This document shows positions 14,218 through 25,918 of a stretch of 33,859 bases of DNA, in pieces. This stretch comes from Deltaproteobacteria bacterium (GTDB lineage: Bacteria > Desulfobacterota > Desulfarculia > Adiutricales > Adiutricaceae). Under the pieces are notes generated by a model. That model was not told where the DNA came from, ran no database searches, and saw nothing but the letters and a program-made list of their open reading frames with translations. How positions within the stretch are numbered: the stretch's first letter is position 1; every line of letters starts with the position of its first letter. Both the position numbers and the translations under genes were made by a program. The stretch is taken from the NCBI GenBank assembly GCA_031270705.1, contig JAISWW010000164.1:1-33859 (forward strand), in the 5' to 3' direction.

Positions 14218-15267
14218 ATGATTATGGGCCAGAAAAAAATACCGAATGAACTTCGGATTCGTAACAGTACCGCCGAATTTCTGATATTCGCCTATCAAAC
14301 AGGCGGAGACGGCCTTGAAGTTCGCGTTCAGGATGGAACAATCTGGCTCTCGCAAAAAAACCTGGGCCAATTGTTCGCTACGTCATCTGACAACATTGGC
14401 CTTCATTTAAAAAATATCTTCGCGGAAGGCGAGTTGACCGCTGGTTCAGTTACCGAGGATTTCTCGGTAACTTCGACCGATGGAAAAAACTATCGCGTCA
14501 AGCATTACAACCTCGAGGCGATTATCGCTGTCGGCTATCGCGTCAACTCGAAACGCGCCACGGCCTTCAGACGGTGGGCAACGAGCGTTTTGCGCGACTA
14601 TACGCTTCGCGGCTATGTTTTGGACAGAAAACGCCTGGAAAACGGCGCGTTCCTCGATGACGACTACTTTGCGCGCCTGCTTGAGGAAATCCGGGAGATT
14701 CGCCTGTCCGAGCGGCGATTTGACCAGAAGATAACCGACATCTACGCCACCGCGCTGGACTACGACCAGTCCGCGCCGACGACCCGCGAGATTTTCGCGC
14801 AAACGCTGGACAAAATGTTCTACATCGTTCTCGGCCAGACCGCCGACGCTGAAAAGGAGCGTATGGGCCTAACGACTTGGGCGAGTAGTCCGAACGGAAA
14901 AATCGTTAAGAGCGACGCGCGCGTCGCGATGAACTATCTGACAGAGACGGAGATTGACGACTTAGGGCGTATCGTTAGCGCGTACCTAGACTTGGCCGAG
15001 AGTCGGGCCAAACGGAAAATCCCGATGACGATGGACGATTGGGCGACGCGGCTTAATATATTTCTCTCCGCTGACAACCGCGAAGTCCTACGCGACGCGG
15101 ACAAAATCACTACCGAGATTGCCAAAGAACACGCCGAGAGCGAGTTTGAGAAGTACCGAACGACTCAAGACCGTCTGTTCCGAAGCGATTTTGACCGCTT
15201 CTTAGATCTTGAGGAACACGCCGCGAACGGCGGCGAGGAAGGCGCGGACGCTGAGGGTCAAACTTAG
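14218..15267 (+). CDS. RhuM-family protein (virulence-associated, DNA-binding-like N-terminus)
   Basis: A 349-residue cytoplasmic protein that matches the RhuM family along its length. Features are the N-terminal VRVQDGTIWLSQKNLGQLF, LHLKNIFAEGEL, the central YNLEAIIAVGYRVNSKRATAFRRWA core, then LRDYTLRGYVLD and RRFDQKITDIYATALDYD. The C-terminal part includes GLTTWA, a KSDARVAMNYLTE stretch and MTMDDWATRL. RhuM was first noted on a Salmonella pathogenicity island, is common on mobile elements, and has no settled function. ATG 14218 or ATG 14224 may be the start; the ribosome binding site is weak. The gene is GC-richer with more CGC/GAC codons than core genes, which supports transfer. It is followed by the Bro-N-Fic gene in the same orientation. 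Confidence 0.9.
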   Translation: MIMGQKKIPNELRIRNSTAEFLIFAYQTGGDGLEVRVQDGTIWLSQKNLGQLFATSSDNIGLHLKNIFAEGELTAGSVTEDFSVTSTDGKNYRVKHYNLEAIIAVGYRVNSKRATAFRRWATSVLRDYTLRGYVLDRKRLENGAFLDDDYFARLLEEIREIRLSERRFDQKITDIYATALDYDQSAPTTREIFAQTLDKMFYIVLGQTADAEKERMGLTTWASSPNGKIVKSDARVAMNYLTETEIDDLGRIVSAYLDLAESRAKRKIPMTMDDWATRLNIFLSADNREVLRDADKITTEIAKEHAESEFEKYRTTQDRLFRSDFDRFLDLEEHAANGGEEGADAEGQT

Positions 15268-15370
15268 CCAGGTTTAGCGCTATAATAATCACTTAACGGT
15301 AGAATTTTTTTAGGTAATTGGTCGCTTAATAGCGCGCTTTATCAAGGTCGCGGCGCTAGAGGATTAGCGG

Positions 15371-16264
15371 ATGAATGAAATCTCAATCAGATTCTTTGAT
15401 GATAAAGAGGTTCGCGCCGTTTGGGATGACGAAGACTCCAAGTGGTGGTTCTCCGTCACCGATTTTGTCGGCGTGTTGAGCCAGACCCCGCGTCCGCGGA
15501 ACTACTGGCATGTCCCCAGATACCGCTTGAAGAAGGCCAAAAGCCAAGTTCTTTTAAATTGTAAGAGGTTCAAATTCATGGCCTCCGATAACAAACCTCG
15601 CTGGACGGATTGCCTGACCAACGATGGCCTTATCGCGCTGGCCAAAGAGTTTCCTGGCAAGGAGCCTAACCGCTTCATCGAGAGGCTCACTCGCGGCGAC
15701 GAGACTATTGATGATCAGAGCGAGGCGAAGGCTTACGCTATATTTGGGAGCTCCTTGTTCGAAACGATAGAGGTCGGAACCGTCAAGGGCTTGCGGCAGA
15801 TTCACGCCTACCTGTTCGGCGGGCTGTATGACTTCGCGGGACAGATAAGGACTCTAGACATCGCCAAGGGCTTCTTCCAATTCGCTGACGCGCGGTTTTT
15901 GCCAGAGACGCTCGCGTCAATCGAGCGAATGCCGGAGAGCTCCTTTGAGGAGATAGTCGCCAAGTACGTCGAGATGAACGTCGGCCATCCGTTCATGGAG
16001 GGCAACGGCAGAAGCGCCCGAATTTGGCTCGACCTGATCCTGAAGAAAAACTTGAAGCTCCAAGTCGATTGGAGCCTGATTGGCAAGAAGGACTATATGG
16101 CCGCGATGAGAGAGAGCGTCACCAACTCCACGCGGATAAAAGCCCTGACCCAAGCCGCGCTGACAGACAAGATTAACGACCGCGAGGTCTTCATTAGAGG
16201 CGTGAGCCAATCCTACTACTACGAGGAAGAAGACGATTTTATGGAGGATGACTGGGACGAGTAG
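15371..16264 (+). CDS. Bro-N-Fic fusion protein with class III-type self-inhibitory tail
   Basis: A 297-residue two-domain protein. Residues 1-115 look like a phage BRO-N/antirepressor domain (IRFFDDKEVRAVWDDEDSKW, then WFSVTDFV). Residues 120-297 are a Fic domain close to Neisseria NmFic, with GTVKGLRQIHAYLFGGLYDF and the catalytic loop HPFMEGNGRSAR at 206-217 (His206). Fic enzymes usually transfer AMP from ATP to a protein hydroxyl. The C-terminal SYYYE at 281-285 matches the class III inhibitory motif (Ser then Glu four residues later), so activity is probably controlled by oligomer state. An acidic tail (EEEDDFMEDDWDE) follows. GAGG precedes ATG 15371. Target unknown; the BRO-N part may bind DNA. 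Confidence 0.9.
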   Translation: MNEISIRFFDDKEVRAVWDDEDSKWWFSVTDFVGVLSQTPRPRNYWHVPRYRLKKAKSQVLLNCKRFKFMASDNKPRWTDCLTNDGLIALAKEFPGKEPNRFIERLTRGDETIDDQSEAKAYAIFGSSLFETIEVGTVKGLRQIHAYLFGGLYDFAGQIRTLDIAKGFFQFADARFLPETLASIERMPESSFEEIVAKYVEMNVGHPFMEGNGRSARIWLDLILKKNLKLQVDWSLIGKKDYMAAMRESVTNSTRIKALTQAALTDKINDREVFIRGVSQSYYYEEEDDFMEDDWDE

Positions 16265-16692: not shown

Positions 16693-16708
16693 GGGGGAAA
16701 ATAAATTT

Positions 16709-16731
16709 AACTGGAAGGCCGCCTTCTGGTT
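16709..16731 (+). promoter_or_regulatory. Leader hairpin before the attenuator
   Basis: AACTGGAAGG (16709-16718), loop CCG, CCTTCTGGTT (16722-16731): a 10-bp stem with two G-U pairs. It would form soon after transcription starts. It could be part of a sensing element that controls the terminator 40 bases downstream, or simply stabilise the RNA. Confidence 0.4.
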
Positions 16732-16771
16732 TGACATATATTCTCTTTCGGGCTGATCAATATTTAATGAA

Positions 16772-16805
16772 GGTCCCGGGCAATTCTGTCCGGGGCCTTT
16801 TTTTT
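16772..16805 (+). terminator. Intrinsic terminator inside the leader (candidate attenuator)
   Basis: The arms GGTCCCGGGC (16772-16781) and GTCCGGGGCC (16788-16797) form a 10-bp stem including two G-U pairs, followed by eight T (16798-16805). It lies between the promoter near 16664 and the first structural gene. Read-through would therefore be needed for expression. It may alternatively be the end of a short upstream transcript. Confidence 0.75.
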
Positions 16806-16861
16806 AGCCTTTTTGTTTTTTATGGCCTTTTTTTGGGCCAGGCTTTTAAGGATTGAATTCG

Positions 16862-18331
16862 ATGAGTTTTATGGAAACCCTCATACCGCCCATCCGGGAA
16901 AGACGCCATCCCGAAACCTCTCTGGCTCACGGAGCGGCTCGATGTGGCCAGGGTCAGAAACGCGCCACCTGCGCGGTCATGGCCCAAGCGGATCGGAGCT
17001 TTACCCAAGGCTCCATCTGTCCCTTGCTTCCGGCTTTAGGCATCATGACCAGCTTACCGGAGACGGTGGTGCTCATGCATGGCGCGGTGGGTTGTGGTAG
17101 TTGCGCCAATGGCAATAACGTGAACATTCGAGCTGGCCACGCCGCTCGAGGCCGAGCCAACCAAGACGCTGTCTGGGTCTCAACCTCTCTAAATGAGATC
17201 AATGTCATAAACGGCGGCGAGGAAAAGCTAGCCGCGGCTATTTTGGAAGTTGACTCGGCCTATAACCCTAAGGTCATCCTCACGGTCTCTGGGTGCCTGC
17301 CGGGCGTTATTGGCGACGATATTGATGGAGTGGCCGCCAAAACCCAAGACCAAGTCAAAGCCAAGATTTTGCCCGTCCACTGCGAGGGATTTAAATCGCG
17401 GTTTATGGCCACCGCTTACGACGTGGTTTACCACGCCGTGGGTCGCCATCTTTTGCCAGAAAAAGCCGCGGGGCCCAAAGATCCTCTGACCGTTAACGTC
17501 ATGAACGTGGGTTCCATGGGTTTGATTGACGAAAAAGAACTGGCCAGGCTTTTAGGGGAACTGGGACTTAAGGCCAACTTTTTTCCCGTCTTCGCCAATC
17601 CCGACTCTTTCGCCTTAGCCACCCAAGCCCGCCTTTCCATTAGCGTTTGCCCCACGCACGACGATTATTTCCTTAATCATTTAAAGGAAAAATACGACGT
17701 GCCCTTTATCATTCGCCACATGCCCATTGGGATAAAAAATACCAGCCAATGGCTTTTGGATCTCGGCCAGGAGCTGGGTTTGGCCAAAGAAGCCCAGGCT
17801 CTGGTCAAAAAAGAAGAGAGCGAACTCCAAGTGGCCTTGGAAGATTTTAAGGCTTTTTTCGCTGGCCAAACGGCCTTTATCTCGGCTGGCGAGTACCGCT
17901 CTTTGGCCACGGCTCTGTTGTTGAGGGAATTGGGTTTTAAGATCTTAGGGATCCGCTCTTTCCACTTTGATAGTTTCGCCGAGGTGGAGTTGGCCAAACT
18001 CGACCAAGGCGACGACTTTATCTTTAACGTGGCCAATGTTCAGCCCTTTGAGGAAGCCAACCTTCTTAAGCGTTTAAAGCCCGATATCTTTTTGGGGCAT
18101 TGGCACGGCAACTCCACCGCGGCTCGTTTGGGCATTCCCGCCCAGGTCATTTATAACAGCGGGTTCGCTTATATCGGCTATCAAGGGGCTTACGACCTAG
18201 CCAGGCGTTTATATAGGCGCCTAAAAAACCCAGCCTTTTATCGCCGCCTAGGCCAATACGCCAAATTGCCCTACCGCCCAGAGTGGTATGAAGAGGATCC
18301 TTTTAACCATATCCGGGAGGCCCAAGGATGA
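16862..18331 (+). CDS. Nitrogenase component 1-like alpha-type subunit (NifD/NifE family, uncharacterised group)
   Basis: A 489-residue protein from ATG 16862 (AAGGA 16848-16852). The three cluster-ligand cysteines of NifD have counterparts: Cys53 (GSICPLL), Cys78 (HGAVGCGSC) and Cys145 (SGCLPGVIGDD). Cys263 in VCPTHDDYFLNHLKEKY aligns with the FeMo-cofactor ligand Cys275 of NifD. The His442 region (IPAQVIYNSGFAYIGYQGA) has Tyr/Asn instead of His. Extra cysteines lie at 28, 37 and 81. It overlaps the beta-type gene by 4 bases (ATGA), so the two probably form a complex. Superfamily members reduce N2, tetrapyrrole double bonds, the F430 precursor or C-S bonds. It is not canonical NifD, and the reaction here is unknown. 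No NifH is nearby. Confidence 0.86.
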   Translation: MSFMETLIPPIRERRHPETSLAHGAARCGQGQKRATCAVMAQADRSFTQGSICPLLPALGIMTSLPETVVLMHGAVGCGSCANGNNVNIRAGHAARGRANQDAVWVSTSLNEINVINGGEEKLAAAILEVDSAYNPKVILTVSGCLPGVIGDDIDGVAAKTQDQVKAKILPVHCEGFKSRFMATAYDVVYHAVGRHLLPEKAAGPKDPLTVNVMNVGSMGLIDEKELARLLGELGLKANFFPVFANPDSFALATQARLSISVCPTHDDYFLNHLKEKYDVPFIIRHMPIGIKNTSQWLLDLGQELGLAKEAQALVKKEESELQVALEDFKAFFAGQTAFISAGEYRSLATALLLRELGFKILGIRSFHFDSFAEVELAKLDQGDDFIFNVANVQPFEEANLLKRLKPDIFLGHWHGNSTAARLGIPAQVIYNSGFAYIGYQGAYDLARRLYRRLKNPAFYRRLGQYAKLPYRPEWYEEDPFNHIREAQG

Positions 18332-19668
18332 GCGAATCTTTTGTGGAAAGACCCAGGTGGTCATGTTCTTTGGGAGGAGCCTTAGCCGCGGCGGGCAACC
18401 TCCCGGAAACGGTGCCTATTTTACATTCAGGGCCAGGTTGCGCGGGCAATTTCGCTTGGACCAACAATGGCGCCGCCGCCCTCAACGTGACTGGGCCCTG
18501 CTTAAGCTTAAACGTCCCGGCCACCAACATCCAAGAAAACGAGGTGGTCTTTGGGGGCTTGGATCGCTTAAAGGAAGAGATCCTAAACGCCATTAAGCTC
18601 TTCAGCGGCAGGCTCTATTTTGTCTTAACGGGCTGCTTGCCGGAAGTCATTGGCGATGACGTGGAGTCTTTGGTCTCTGAGCTCAATGGCCCGAAAAACC
18701 ATTTGGTCATGGCTAGCGTGGCCGGCTTTAAGGGCGATTCTTACCATGGTTATGAAGAGGTCTTAAAAACCTTAATTGAAAAAGTGGTCAAAAACACGGC
18801 CAAAAAAGAAAGGGATCTGGTCAACGTCTGGGGTTTGCCGCCGACTCAAGATCCCTTCTGGCGAGGCAATTTGCAAGGTTTGCGGGATCTCTTGGGTTTA
18901 CTGAAACTGCGAGCCAATGTTTTCTTTGGCCCGAGCGTTAATTTCTCGACCATAGCTCAAGCGGCCCGAGCCAGACACAATATCGTGGTCTCTGGCCTTT
19001 ATGGCTTGGAAGCGGCGGAATTATTTCAGGAAAAATTTCAGACGCCTTATGTCCAAACGCCCTTGCCCTTTGGGGCTGAGGCTTCGGATCGCTTTTTGGC
19101 CATCGTCAGCCAGGCCCTCAAGATCCCCTCTCGCCAATACAAAAAGGCCATTGACACGGCGGGCCAATGGCATTACGCCCGCCTCGAGCCCATTGTGGAC
19201 GTCTTTAACGACATGGAGGCTCAAAGGCACGTTCTGGTGGTGGGCGACGTGAACCAGGCCTTGGCCTTAACTGACTTCTTCGCCCAGGATTTGGGCTGGG
19301 TTCCGGAATTGACGGTTATTACCAATAATCTAACCCCAGAGGAACAAGCTCAAGTCCTTCAGTACCACCAAGAAGTTGGCGGAACCCAGCCAGAGCGACT
19401 TATTTTTGAAAACCAGGCCCAGGCCATCGCCAAAACGGCTAAAGAGATCTTTGGTCGCGATGGGTCTAAATATCAGCCTAGTCGCCAGCCGGTCTTTGTG
19501 GCCGGTAGCTCTTTGGAAAGGGGTTTAGCCCAAGAGCTAGGGGCGACCCACCTGAGCCTGACTTACCCCATCGCCAACCGGGCCATTTTGACCCGGGGAT
19601 ACGTGGGTTATTCCGGCGGCTTGCGTTTAACCGAAGACGCGGTTAGCGCTTTTATCGCTGGACGATAG
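18328..19668 (+). CDS. Nitrogenase component 1-like beta-type subunit (NifK/NifN family)
   Basis: A 446-residue partner of the preceding gene, translationally coupled to it by a 4-base overlap. It has a short N-terminus and three cysteines in NifK-like positions: Cys13 (WSCSLGG), Cys38 (SGPGCAGNF) and Cys103 (TGCLPEVIGDDV). A fourth is Cys58 (GPCLSL). Middle motifs (SGLYGLEAAELFQEKF, LPFGAEASDRFL) and the end (LTYPIANRAILTRGYVGYSG) follow the NifK/NifN pattern FP-x-x-R-x-x-x-R-x-x-x-GY-x-G. With three cysteines in each subunit, an interface [8Fe-7S] or [4Fe-4S] cluster is possible. I infer an alpha-beta heterodimer or heterotetramer in the cytoplasm. Confidence 0.85.
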   Translation: MSESFVERPRWSCSLGGALAAAGNLPETVPILHSGPGCAGNFAWTNNGAAALNVTGPCLSLNVPATNIQENEVVFGGLDRLKEEILNAIKLFSGRLYFVLTGCLPEVIGDDVESLVSELNGPKNHLVMASVAGFKGDSYHGYEEVLKTLIEKVVKNTAKKERDLVNVWGLPPTQDPFWRGNLQGLRDLLGLLKLRANVFFGPSVNFSTIAQAARARHNIVVSGLYGLEAAELFQEKFQTPYVQTPLPFGAEASDRFLAIVSQALKIPSRQYKKAIDTAGQWHYARLEPIVDVFNDMEAQRHVLVVGDVNQALALTDFFAQDLGWVPELTVITNNLTPEEQAQVLQYHQEVGGTQPERLIFENQAQAIAKTAKEIFGRDGSKYQPSRQPVFVAGSSLERGLAQELGATHLSLTYPIANRAILTRGYVGYSGGLRLTEDAVSAFIAGR

Positions 19669-19676
19669 GCGAGATC

Positions 19677-20675
19677 ATGGATAAACCGCTAATGTGGCCT
19701 TTATACCGCTTAAAAACCGCCCCGAGCTTAGGTTTTCTAAGGAATAACTTGGCTTTTTGGTCGGGTCTATTAGCCTTGGCCTTAGAAATAAGCCTCGCCG
19801 AGAGTGGCCTCCAACCGCCCACGGATAGGCCTTATTTGCGCTATTTTCTGATTTTGGCTTTGGCTTATTTTGGGCTGGCTCCTTTTCTCCTGCGCTCCCC
19901 GGAAAAACGAGCCAAGCGCCAAGCCAAAGACAACTTTTACGCCATGGCCTTTTTGTTTTTGAACGCTCTTAATTTGGCCACTAGCAAATTCACCGTTATC
20001 CCCGCCATCTTCTTTCCCTCGCCGGACAGAATTTTATCCGTTTTGATCGAAGACTTTAATTATCTCATCTTAGTCTGCCTTTACGCCTCGGCCAAGCTCT
20101 TAATCTGTGGCTTTTTCTCAGGCGCCTTGGCCGGGCTCATCACGGGGGTCGCCATTGGTTTTTCCAAATCCTCGGCTTATTGGCTGAACCCTTTAATTAA
20201 AATCTTAGGCCCCATCCCGCCCACAGCCTGGATTCCCATAGTCTTGGTGGCTTTTCCGACCACCTGGGCGGGCGGCGTCTTTTTGATAGCTTTATCGGTT
20301 TGGTTCCCCACCTCGATCATGACGTCCAGCGGCATCTTAAATGTTCAAAACGCCTATTTTGAGGTCTCGAGCACTTTAGGCGCCAAACGGGTCTACCAGA
20401 TTTTTTTGGTGGGCATTCCCGCGGCTATGCCCTTAATTTTCACGGGTCTATTTAGCGGGGCTTGCGCTTCCTTTTTGACCCTCATGACCGCGGAGATGGT
20501 GGGCGTTAAAAACGGCATTGGCTGGTACATCAATTGGCAAAGGGAGATGCTTTCCTACGCCAACGTCTACGCCGGCCTAATTGTTATCGCCATTTCCTTT
20601 TATTCCCTCATTACCTTGTTTTTTAAGGTTAGAGATCGGGCTTTAGTCTGGCAAAAAGGCATGATCAAATGGTAG
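19677..20675 (+). CDS. NitT/TauT-family ABC transporter permease
   Basis: A 332-residue inner-membrane protein. The N-terminal segment has two extra hydrophobic stretches. The core contains about six membrane helices typical of SsuC/TauC/NrtB, with the ATPase-coupling loop EVSSTLGAKRVYQIFLVGIP near residues 227-246. It starts 8 bases after the beta-like subunit and overlaps the ATPase gene by 7 bases, so it belongs to the same operon. The family imports sulfonates, nitrate, bicarbonate, thiamine precursors or other small compounds. The substrate is not readable from the permease. Confidence 0.9.
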   Translation: MDKPLMWPLYRLKTAPSLGFLRNNLAFWSGLLALALEISLAESGLQPPTDRPYLRYFLILALAYFGLAPFLLRSPEKRAKRQAKDNFYAMAFLFLNALNLATSKFTVIPAIFFPSPDRILSVLIEDFNYLILVCLYASAKLLICGFFSGALAGLITGVAIGFSKSSAYWLNPLIKILGPIPPTAWIPIVLVAFPTTWAGGVFLIALSVWFPTSIMTSSGILNVQNAYFEVSSTLGAKRVYQIFLVGIPAAMPLIFTGLFSGACASFLTLMTAEMVGVKNGIGWYINWQREMLSYANVYAGLIVIAISFYSLITLFFKVRDRALVWQKGMIKW

Positions 20676-21475
20676 AGCTGGCCGAAAATATTCAATCCCA
20701 AGGGGTTATTGACATTAAATCCGTCTCCAAAACCTTCCCCCATCCCGATGGCTCCGAGGTTTTGGCTTTGGCCAAAGTGGATCTGACCATTGACTCCGGC
20801 GAGTTTGTCTCCCTAATCGGCCCCTCTGGTTGCGGCAAATCCACTTTGCTCCGTTTAATCGCCGGGTTAGAAGTCGCCACGACCGGAACTTTGGAGCTAG
20901 ATGGCCAACTCATTGAGGGGCCTGACGCCGAAAGAGGTTTAGTTTTTCAAAATCCCTATCTTTTTCCATGGCTCAATATCTTTAATAACGTGGCTTTTGG
21001 CTTGCGAGCTCGGCGGGTCTACAAAGAACAAAAACATTTGGTGAACCAGTTTTTGGAACTGGTGGGCTTGGGCAAATTTGGCCAAGTTTACCCCCATCAC
21101 CTCTCTGGCGGCATGGCCCAAAGAGCCTCTTTGGCTCGAACTTTGATCAACCACCCGCGGGTTTTATTGTTGGATGAGCCTTTGGGAGCTCTAGACGCTT
21201 TTACCCGCATGACCATGCAGGACGAGATCCTGCGCATCCGGGCCGAAAAGCGCATCACCATGATCATGGTCACGCACGACGTGGATGAGGCCATCTATCT
21301 TTCAGACCGAGTCGTGGTCATGACCCCTAGCCCCGGCCAAGTGGAGACAATCTTAAACGTCCCCTTCCCGCGACCGCGGGCGCGCAATAACCCGGATTTT
21401 TTTCTCTTAAGAAGCCGGATCCTCGAGATTTTGAATTTCGTCGGCCACGTCGAGGATCCTCCGTACCAAATTTGA
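20669..21475 (+). CDS. NitT/TauT-family ABC transporter ATP-binding protein
   Basis: A 268-residue ABC ATPase on the inner face of the membrane. All motifs are present: Walker A GPSGCGKST at 51-59, Q-loop VFQNPYLFPW at 92-101, signature LSGGM at 145-149 and Walker B VLLLDEP at 165-171, followed by the MVTHDVDEAIYLSDR switch His. Closest in pattern to SsuB/TauB. The ATG overlaps the end of the permease gene. The binding protein gene follows after about 80 bases. Confidence 0.94.
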   Translation: MVELAENIQSQGVIDIKSVSKTFPHPDGSEVLALAKVDLTIDSGEFVSLIGPSGCGKSTLLRLIAGLEVATTGTLELDGQLIEGPDAERGLVFQNPYLFPWLNIFNNVAFGLRARRVYKEQKHLVNQFLELVGLGKFGQVYPHHLSGGMAQRASLARTLINHPRVLLLDEPLGALDAFTRMTMQDEILRIRAEKRITMIMVTHDVDEAIYLSDRVVVMTPSPGQVETILNVPFPRPRARNNPDFFLLRSRILEILNFVGHVEDPPYQI

Positions 21476-21557
21476 CAGCGCTGACTGGCGCTCTTTGAAA
21501 ACCTTGTCGCTTAGGCTTAGGGCCAAGGACAAACATCTTTATAGAAAGAGGCGTTTT

Positions 21558-22550
21558 ATGTCCAAATCTTCTATTTTATCCGTCTTAGTCCTAGCCATTT
21601 TGGCTTTGGGCTTACAACAGAGCGCCAACGCTCAGCAATTAAAAAAGATTCGCGTCGGCATTAACGGCAACCTGTGCGAGGGCTCCACGCACATCGCCAA
21701 AGAAAAGGGCTTTTTTGAAAAAGAAGGCTTAGACGCGGAGCTGATCCGCTTAGCCCCCGGCACCAATTTTGAGGCCATTACGGCTGGCTCCATTGACGCG
21801 AGCTTTGGCCTTTTGGCCACCTTAATCCAGCCTTTGTCCAATGGTTTGCCCATTAAGATCACTACTGGCCTCCACACCGGTTGCGATAAGCTTTTGGTCA
21901 AGCCTGATTCCGGCATTAAGACTTTGACCGATTTAAAAGGCAAAAAGATTGGCGTCCCCAGCCTCACCTCCAGCCCCATTATGTTCACCCGGCGGGGTTT
22001 AGCCAGTGTTGGAGTTAAGGTGGGCGACAAAGACTCGGAAGTGGAGTTTATTGTTTTCTCCAACGCCGAATTGCCCTTGGCCCTGGAAAAGGGCGCCATT
22101 GACGCCCTCGCGACCAACGACCCCGTGGCCTCAGTAGCCGCTCGGGACTATAAACTGACTATCCTCTTGGACTCGGCCAGAGACAAACCCTACGCTGACC
22201 AATATTGTTGCGCCGCCTATGTCGCGGCCTCTTTAGCCGCCAAAGATCCCGAGACCGCGGCCAAATACACCCGGGCTTTACAAAACGCCGCGGCTTGGAT
22301 TCAAAAAAACCAAGACGAAACGGCTAAAATCCAGGTGGATTTAAAATACGTGGCGGGCGATCCGATTTTTAACGCCTCGGTTATCAAAACCTTCCGTTAT
22401 ATCCCTTCCGTTTCTGGAGCTTATGACGCTTTTGGCATTACGGCCAAAGAACTGAAGCAAATCGGCATTCTCGGGGCCAAAGTCGACGTGGACGCTCTCC
22501 ATAAAAGCTCCTTCGTGACGTTACCCAATGTCCCTGACACGGTTGAGTAA
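21558..22550 (+). CDS. NitT/TauT-like periplasmic substrate-binding protein with conserved cysteines
   Basis: I chose ATG 21558 (AAAGAGG 6 bases upstream) over upstream in-frame starts because it gives a proper signal peptide (MSKSSILSVLVLAILALGL, cleavage near ANA-QQ at 25). The 330-residue product has the NMT1/SsuA-like fold: ISIDASFG-type loop (TAGSIDASFG), DLKGKKIGVPS and ALEKGAIDAL. Unusual for the family are four cysteines in the mature protein: Cys40 (GNLCEGST), Cys109 (LHTGCDKLL) and Cys217-Cys218 (QYCCAAY). They could form disulfides or bind a thiophilic or metal-bearing ligand. This is the last gene of the five-gene operon, followed by a strong hairpin. Confidence 0.88.
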   Translation: MSKSSILSVLVLAILALGLQQSANAQQLKKIRVGINGNLCEGSTHIAKEKGFFEKEGLDAELIRLAPGTNFEAITAGSIDASFGLLATLIQPLSNGLPIKITTGLHTGCDKLLVKPDSGIKTLTDLKGKKIGVPSLTSSPIMFTRRGLASVGVKVGDKDSEVEFIVFSNAELPLALEKGAIDALATNDPVASVAARDYKLTILLDSARDKPYADQYCCAAYVAASLAAKDPETAAKYTRALQNAAAWIQKNQDETAKIQVDLKYVAGDPIFNASVIKTFRYIPSVSGAYDAFGITAKELKQIGILGAKVDVDALHKSSFVTLPNVPDTVE

Positions 22551-24361: not shown

Positions 24362-24691
24362 TTATTTTTTAACAAAAGGTCTCATAATAAAATATATTAT
24401 ATATGTAATAAGCCATATCGCGCTCACAACAAGGGATAGTACTGGGAAAAGAAGAAGTATTAGAATGCTCTTTCCTGGACCTGACACGTCCTTTATCAAA
24501 AGAATAGATATTATAAGGAAAATTACTCCGGTTATTATTGCGCTAAGAGAAAATAATAATAATTTACTTTTATTTTTAAGCGTTAACATCAATTTATTAA
24601 TAGAAATTGGAATACATATGAAAAATACTAAAATTAAATACCAAAATAGAATATAAATATCATGACAATTAAATTTAACTATAATTGACAA
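24362..24691 (-). CDS. Small membrane protein, paralog 1 of 3
   Basis: About 109 residues with three to four hydrophobic segments and a basic C-terminus (IMRPFVKK). Its motifs FFICIPISI, FSLSAIITGVIFLIIS and YIIYFI match the two paralogs nearby. The start is uncertain. The frame remains open upstream to about 24735, where the DNEIYSIFYL sequence matches the N-terminus of paralog 3, but the equivalent start codon is GTT. It may therefore start at an internal TTG or be decaying. I do not recognise the family. The region is much more AT-rich than the core genes. Confidence 0.5.
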   Translation of the reverse strand: MSIIVKFNCHDIYILFWYLILVFFICIPISINKLMLTLKNKSKLLLFSLSAIITGVIFLIISILLIKDVSGPGKSILILLLFPVLSLVVSAIWLITYIIYFIMRPFVKK

Positions 24692-24773: not shown

Positions 24774-25073
24774 TTATTTTTTGATAAAAAATCTCTTAAT
24801 AAAATATACTAACAATGTAATAATCCCTATCACGCTCAAAAGAATGGGTAGCGCTGGGGAAAGATGGAGCAATAAAGCGCCCTTTCCTGATTCTGTTTCT
24901 GACGCGCCTATTATCAAAAGAGTAGACATTATAAGGAAAAATACTCCGGTAATTAATGCGCCAAGAGAATATGATAGTAATATACTTTTGTTTTTAAATA
25001 CTGACATCCATATATTAATAGAAATTAGAATACATATAAAAAATACTAAAATTAAATACAAGAATATAACCAT
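24774..25073 (-). CDS. Small membrane protein, paralog 2 of 3 (N-terminally shortened)
   Basis: A 99-residue ORF from ATG 25073 with the same pattern as its neighbours (FFICILISI, SLGALITGVFFLIMST, LLVYFIKRFFIKK). Nucleotide similarity to paralog 1 continues upstream to about 25160 (ATAATGAAATTTATAGTA), but the frame is broken there by an extra T and by stop codons. The N-terminal helix is thus lost. Directly upstream on its strand lies a fragment of the histidine kinase gene. It is probably a degrading copy. Confidence 0.45.
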   Translation of the reverse strand: MVIFLYLILVFFICILISINIWMSVFKNKSILLSYSLGALITGVFFLIMSTLLIIGASETESGKGALLLHLSPALPILLSVIGIITLLVYFIKRFFIKK

Positions 25074-25534: not shown

Positions 25535-25918
25535 TTATTTATTGATAAAAGGCCTCCTAATAAAATATACTAACAATGTAATAATACCTATCAAGCTCAT
25601 AACAATGGACAATGCTGGAAAAAGAAGGAGCATTAACCCAACTATTTCCCCTGGCCCTGGATCTGACGCGCCAAATATGGAAATAGTAGATATTATAAGG
25701 AAAAATACTCCGGTTATTATTGCGGCAAGAGAAAATGATAGTAATTTGCCTTTGTTTTTAAACATTAACATCCATCGACGAATAGAAACTGGAATACATA
25801 TGAAAAATTCCAAAACTAAATTCCAGAATATAAGACCCATATCCTGAGATTCAAACTTAAGTATAATTGTTAATAAAAAAATAGAAATATAAAAAGTTAC
25901 TACATTTTCATTGTCCAC
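25535..25918 (-). CDS. Small membrane protein, paralog 3 of 3 (best-preserved copy)
   Basis: A 127-residue ORF from GTG 25918, beginning (V/M)DNENVVTFYISIFLLTIIL. Four hydrophobic segments and a basic tail (LVYFIRRPFINK) predict an inner-membrane protein. The core FFICIPVSI and FSLAAIITGVFFLIISTISI is shared with the two other copies. It lies about 490 bases downstream of the intact histidine kinase on the same strand. Paralog 2 likewise lies downstream of the kinase fragment, so kinase and membrane gene seem to have been duplicated as a pair. The family is unknown to me. Confidence 0.6.
   Translation of the reverse strand: MDNENVVTFYISIFLLTIILKFESQDMGLIFWNLVLEFFICIPVSIRRWMLMFKNKGKLLSFSLAAIITGVFFLIISTISIFGASDPGPGEIVGLMLLLFPALSIVMSLIGIITLLVYFIRRPFINK

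Follow-up and report, generated by a model that had tools for sequence, protein, structure and literature searches.

A Mar-like nitrogenase-family protein pair encoded with an SsuABC-like transporter in a deltaproteobacterium, and its predicted cofactor ligands

An operon for a nitrogenase-like pair and an ABC transporter

The window analysed here is a 33,859-nucleotide stretch of contig JAISWW010000164.1 (assembly GCA_031270705.1) from a deltaproteobacterium of the Adiutricaceae, which we suspect to be gut-derived. It carries an operon in which the genes for an alpha-type (D) and a beta-type (K) subunit are followed by those for an ABC transporter.

16769 to 16810, plus strand: GC-rich hairpin with a T-run after it, preceding the operon; conserved across seven genomes of the genus
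16862 to 18331, plus strand: P0001, alpha-type (NifD/MarD-like) subunit, 489 aa (PF00148, MarD homology)
18328 to 19668, plus strand: beta-type (NifK/MarK-like) subunit, 446 aa (PF00148; MarK, E = 2e-59)
19677 to 20675, plus strand: ABC transporter permease, TauC/NtrB/SsuC type (domain matches, conserved order)
20669 to 21475, plus strand: ABC transporter ATPase, NrtCD/Sao/Tau type (domain matches, conserved order)
21495 to 22550, plus strand: periplasmic substrate-binding protein (SBP), NMT1/SsuA family (SsuA_fam match)

The P0001 reading frame was intact, the translation of 16862-18331 being free of internal stops, and the protein matched PF00148 (Oxidored_nitro) with an E-value of 3e-76 and 257 bits against a gathering cut-off of 28.6. 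Its best solved relative was MarD (9fmg_A/9d9u_A, E = 2e-61), and a Foldseek search with the AlphaFold model of P0001 returned MarD at each of ranks 1 to 3; this model, built from four sequences with a mean pLDDT of 62.6, was too low in confidence for residue geometry, and the fold ranking alone was used. Among the NCBIfam models, the highest score was obtained with NifE (TIGR01283, 161.7 bits, far under its cut-off of 505.1), and the NifD model (TIGR01282) also stayed below threshold, at 136 bits against 653.6. Comparison of P0001 with its nearest relatives gave a dN of 0.09-0.16, a dS of about 1.5 or more, and a dN/dS of about 0.06, indicating strong purifying selection and hence a working gene.

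The alpha and beta ORFs overlap by 4 bases at the alpha stop. The order D, K, permease, ATPase, and SBP was kept in all 15 relatives with long enough contigs, which span two families and include G046, a genome from another family of the class. The SBP scored 107 bits with SsuA_fam, under the curated cut-off of 163.5; its identity among relatives was 68-84%, and its best solved relative was 3qsl, a putative exported protein for which no ligand is given. Nitrate and pyrimidines are also among the cargoes of NitT/TauT-type transporters. No sulfur-metabolism enzyme is encoded in the window operon itself.

The leader (16695-16862) contains a GGGCTGATC box, a strong hairpin, and the T-run, with a fold z-score of -3.9, and the hairpin is possibly an attenuator or an upstream terminator. 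An Rfam search of the window and four relatives recovered no match at the leader; its only hits were tRNAs and, in L045 at a distance from the operon, a single cobalamin riboswitch. Directly upstream of the operon, at 14218-16264, lie a RhuM-family ORF and then a gene whose product has a Fic domain and matches Bro-N weakly; in relatives, these genes did not turn up in the neighbourhood of the operon. Elsewhere in the window, three short ORFs that resemble one another and encode hydrophobic proteins of 99-127 aa occur in tandem (24362-24691, 24774-25073, and 25535-25918, minus strand) and apparently represent a small repeated membrane-protein family.

Predicted cofactor ligands of the alpha-type subunit

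Ligand positions were located in a multiple alignment (MAFFT) of P0001, MarD, NifD, NifE, and the alpha-type sequences of relatives. The clade set comprised 29 sequences, namely 15 of family A (the window family), 13 of the sister set B, and L015. The codons concerned are the following.

17018 to 17020, plus strand: Cys53, P-cluster-type ligand, opposite MarD Cys66 (alignment)
17093 to 17095, plus strand: Cys78, P-cluster-type ligand, opposite MarD Cys91 (alignment)
17294 to 17296, plus strand: Cys145, P-cluster-type ligand, opposite MarD Cys158 (alignment)
17648 to 17650, plus strand: Cys263, opposite the cofactor ligand MarD Cys270/NifD Cys275 (alignments; invariant, 29/29)
18098 to 18100, plus strand: His413, candidate Fe8 ligand, opposite MarD His429 (MAFFT and profile-profile alignment; invariant, 29/29)
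18104 to 18106, plus strand: His415, second Loop I histidine, invariant (15/15) only in family A (alignment)

The three P-cluster-type cysteines that a sequence-only reading of this DNA had picked out are all present: Cys53, Cys78, and Cys145 align with the P-cluster cysteines of MarD and NifD and are invariant in every family compared. On the beta side, Cys13, Cys38, and Cys103 lie opposite the P-cluster cysteines of MarK, and the set is complete, with six cysteines over D and K, three per subunit. The pairing of Cys263 with the NifD cofactor cysteine, made by eye in that reading, was borne out, this residue being invariant and aligned with MarD Cys270 and with the cofactor cysteine of NifD. 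The extra cysteines at positions 28, 37, and 81 are there as well, conserved within family A in 11, 14, and 15 of the 15 sequences, respectively; in MarDK-type proteins they are mostly missing and none is conserved, and the alignment indicates that they are not core residues. Another cysteine, Cys174 (HCEGF), had been overlooked and is kept in nearly all aligned sequences.

At the position of NifD His442, P0001 has no histidine, as had been noted; the region reads VIYNSGFAYIGYQ, and a histidine is found there in just 2 of the 15 family A orthologs (as YNSGH), so that it is not conserved. The further claim of a missing second cofactor ligand did not hold up, since at the level of sequence a conserved histidine elsewhere, His413, occupies the probable ligand position. 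The [Fe8S9C] cluster of MarD is coordinated by Cys270 and His429 (PMC12552129). Because His429 sits in Loop I and not at the NifD His442 site, this ligand was overlooked by earlier sequence analyses (PMC12552129). Loop I reads FLGHWHGN in P0001 (FLGH[WM]HGN as the family motif), and both MAFFT and profile-profile alignment placed His413 on MarD His429. Only three histidines are fully invariant in the 29-sequence clade: His73, in a conserved HG motif; His266, three residues C-terminal to Cys263; and His413. Within the known ligand loops, His413 is the sole histidine common to A and B and the sole one invariant in 29/29, and its column holds Gly in both NifE and NifD. Position 414, between His413 and His415, is filled by Trp or Met in family A; B has Gly, Asn, Ser, Thr, or Ala there.

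Loop I has one residue more in MarD than in P0001, and the match of His413 with His429 carries an ambiguity of ±1. When the loops were aligned without gaps from KPD, His413 fell opposite Arg428 (NifD Gly424) and Trp414 opposite His429, a shift that keeps His415 as a rival ligand. The hhalign comparison of MarD with NifD put Loop I wrongly and was left out for this loop. Taken together, His413 is quite probably the second cofactor ligand. The idea that the cofactor is bound differently is therefore right in that the predicted ligand set departs from that of NifD, but no unfamiliar mode of binding is called for, as the set matches the cysteine plus Loop I histidine of MarD.

Clade structure, distribution, and gene content of relatives

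In the IQ-TREE tree, family A was monophyletic (support 100/100) and joined with set B (A+B, 98/98); M (98/95) and C (100/100) were likewise recovered, all apart from Nif. A+B stands beside M, with P0001 outside the MarD clade, and set B is not monophyletic, L056 and L057 grouping with A. Members of family A were found in the window genus, in its family, and in one genome belonging to a different family of that class. Among 395 genomes drawn evenly across the phylum no additional member turned up, the viral contigs searched held no relative, and plasmid records of other phyla gave only Mar-like pairs, in Chlorohelix and Treponema.

The sister D-K pair B adjoins a CysK (cysteine synthase)-type gene at L053 (4926-5888, contig C186 of the window genome), L056, L057, L058, L063, L064, and L065, and in several relatives true MarDK-like pairs adjoin pair B. 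At L056 (3011-10693), a D-K pair close to A is flanked by genes for glutamine-synthetase-like, MtaA-like methylcobamide methyltransferase, and 4Fe-4S proteins.

Relatives of the window genome have up to seven matches to P0001 each, some being ordinary Nif proteins. In G018 and G046, genes for NifB-like (radical SAM), NifX-like, and NifH-like proteins lie just upstream of D-K, and the NifB-like protein of G046 contains a CxxxCxxC motif. The window-type D-K pair provides the only PF00148 genes of G046 (92% complete), and G006 (96% complete) has PF00148 pairs A and B only, with no Nif set; each of these two genomes has one Fe protein above threshold. Their gene content argues that family A is independent of NifDK and NifEN and has nothing to scaffold. 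G046 has its B-X-H-D-K-ABC genes in one compact cluster on a single contig, so that an uncharacterised nitrogenase-like activity can be tested directly.

In the window genome, a NifB-like and NifX-like pair lies on contig C84. Contig C221 encodes a group-IV-type Fe protein that shares 68-69% identity with the Fe proteins encoded in the operons and 49% with the NifH of the window genome itself; this genome also carries NifHDKEN. In its nif cluster (contig C165), a 945-aa ORF at L054 (7013-9850) extends over NifN-like and NifB regions and is apparently a NifN-NifB fusion.

Proposed activity and alternatives

Sequence analysis establishes the D-K pair as a Mar-like member of the nitrogenase family, with respect to its family, ORF, ligand set, operon, clade, selection, and independence from NifEN and NifDK. 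The pair is very likely a catalytic [Fe8S9C]-type enzyme. The best explanation of the whole, which we hold with moderate confidence, is that the pair forms a Mar-like [Fe8S9C] reductase for the cleavage of an imported organosulfur anion. We infer that this nitrogenase-family reductase would contain, besides a P-cluster bound by the six cysteines, an [Fe8S9C] cluster free of Mo and homocitrate, made by an unlinked NifB-like protein, with Cys263 as the anchor at Fe1 and a Loop I histidine, most likely His413, as that at Fe8. Electrons would be supplied by the group-IV-type Fe protein encoded elsewhere in the window genome (C221). The SsuABC-like transporter would bring in a small polar, probably organosulfur, compound, and we infer that D-K would cleave its C-S bond reductively, releasing sulfur for assimilation. 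For the substrate, an organosulfur compound is somewhat favoured by the kinship with the C-S-cleaving Mar, the SsuABC-like transport as in IsrBHDK, and the CysK-type gene beside pair B.

IsrBHDK of Rhodobacter capsulatus is a nitrogenase-like sulfur enzyme that works with an SsuCAB transporter (PMC11423573), and its H-D-K proteins are tied to an ABC transporter of this type, as in the window family. The SsuABC-like transporter within the operon parallels this arrangement, and a sulfonate such as isethionate might be cleaved in an IsrHDK-like reaction; this sub-case of the best explanation, which concerns the substrate, is tentative and rather unlikely. IsrD has one P-cluster cysteine out of three and lacks both Cys275 and His442 (PMC11423573), whereas P0001 keeps all three together with Cys263, which argues that the window pair is not Isr by descent, though the kind of substrate may be common to both. 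Furthermore, IsrB was closest to BciD, and not to NifB, in the published analysis (PMC11423573), unlike the B protein of family A operons, which matches NifB. In a variant that we consider unlikely, the cluster would have two Loop I histidines available to it, His413 and His415, and the imported anion would be reductively desulfonated or desulfurized; if true, nitrogenase-type clusters would have a third chemistry in addition to N2 fixation and thioether cleavage.

Could the window pair be a bona fide methylthio-alkane reductase acting on the same substrates as MarDK? MarDK (Rhodospirillum rubrum, PDB 9fmg/9d9u) is its best solved relative and has in common with it the fold, the P-cluster cysteine set, the cofactor cysteine, the Loop I histidine, and the lack of His442; equivalents of MarD Cys270, His429, and His375 (His368 in family A) are present. 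However, the identity is a mere 29-31%, while other pairs in relatives of the window genome reach 41-49% identity to MarDK, and the window family and MarD fall in separate, well-supported clades. The pocket also differs: R. rubrum MarD Trp195 and Phe199 are replaced by Met182 and Tyr186 in family A (15/15), His194 by Phe181, and Cys73/Gln74 by Gly60/Ile61 (Met for Ile61 in one sequence), and Arg428 has no counterpart, a gap following the Gly in 15/15 family A sequences. Within the M clade, Trp195, Phe199, and Arg428 hold, and His194 and Cys73/Gln74 vary. The window pair has, in addition, the extra His415, the invariant His266, and a dedicated SsuABC-like transporter. On the separate clade and the pocket residues, the assignment as a true Mar was rejected, and we regard it as improbable. 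Arg428 and His429 have been suggested as the mark of methylthio-alkane reductases by the 2025 MarD structure paper (PMC12552129). A sister clade with at least two subfamilies keeps the Loop I histidine without Arg428, so this histidine appears to be wider than MAR, and Arg428 looks MAR-specific.

N2 fixation by a group IV nitrogenase, as claimed for NfaDK (group IV-A) of Endomicrobium proavitum, has a precedent in reports of group IV fixation without NifEN (PMC8399215, PMC9147875, PMC11257099), and the absence of a need for NifEN is common to NfaDK and the window pair. By its published description, NfaD keeps every ligand that N2 reduction requires (PMC9147875), unlike P0001, which lacks His442. 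The pair has the fold, P-cluster cysteines, and cofactor cysteine in common with NifDK Mo-nitrogenase, but Gln191/His195 of NifD are Met182/Tyr186 in P0001, a histidine takes the place of the Gly near 424, and NifEN is not needed. Since the window genome already has NifHDKEN as well, we judge N2 fixation by this pair very unlikely.

The scaffold-like role proposed in the sequence-only reading, that of a NifE-like cofactor scaffold or maturase, has in its favour the top NCBIfam score of NifE and the presence of NifDKEN in the window genome. The fold is also common to NifEN, which itself holds an [Fe8S9C] cluster. The scaffold role was discarded as highly improbable, because G046 has the window-type pair alone, alongside B, X, and H genes of its own and no second enzyme to serve, G006 has only A and B, NifE has Gly in place of the Loop I histidine, and the operon encodes its own transporter.

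Variants of Loop I were observed in other alpha subunits. In family C (L068, L069, L071, L072, and L075), Cys-Pro (CPFQG, CPFMG) stands in place of the histidine, and the histidine in RIHALRGDG was put on NifD His442 by profile alignment; as predicted from these alignments, related bacteria thus have, in family C, a cofactor ligand set of another kind. A Mar-like alpha subunit on a long branch (L066, 4500-5954) has Val at the His429 column (ARVHAG), and its ligand may be shifted or lost.
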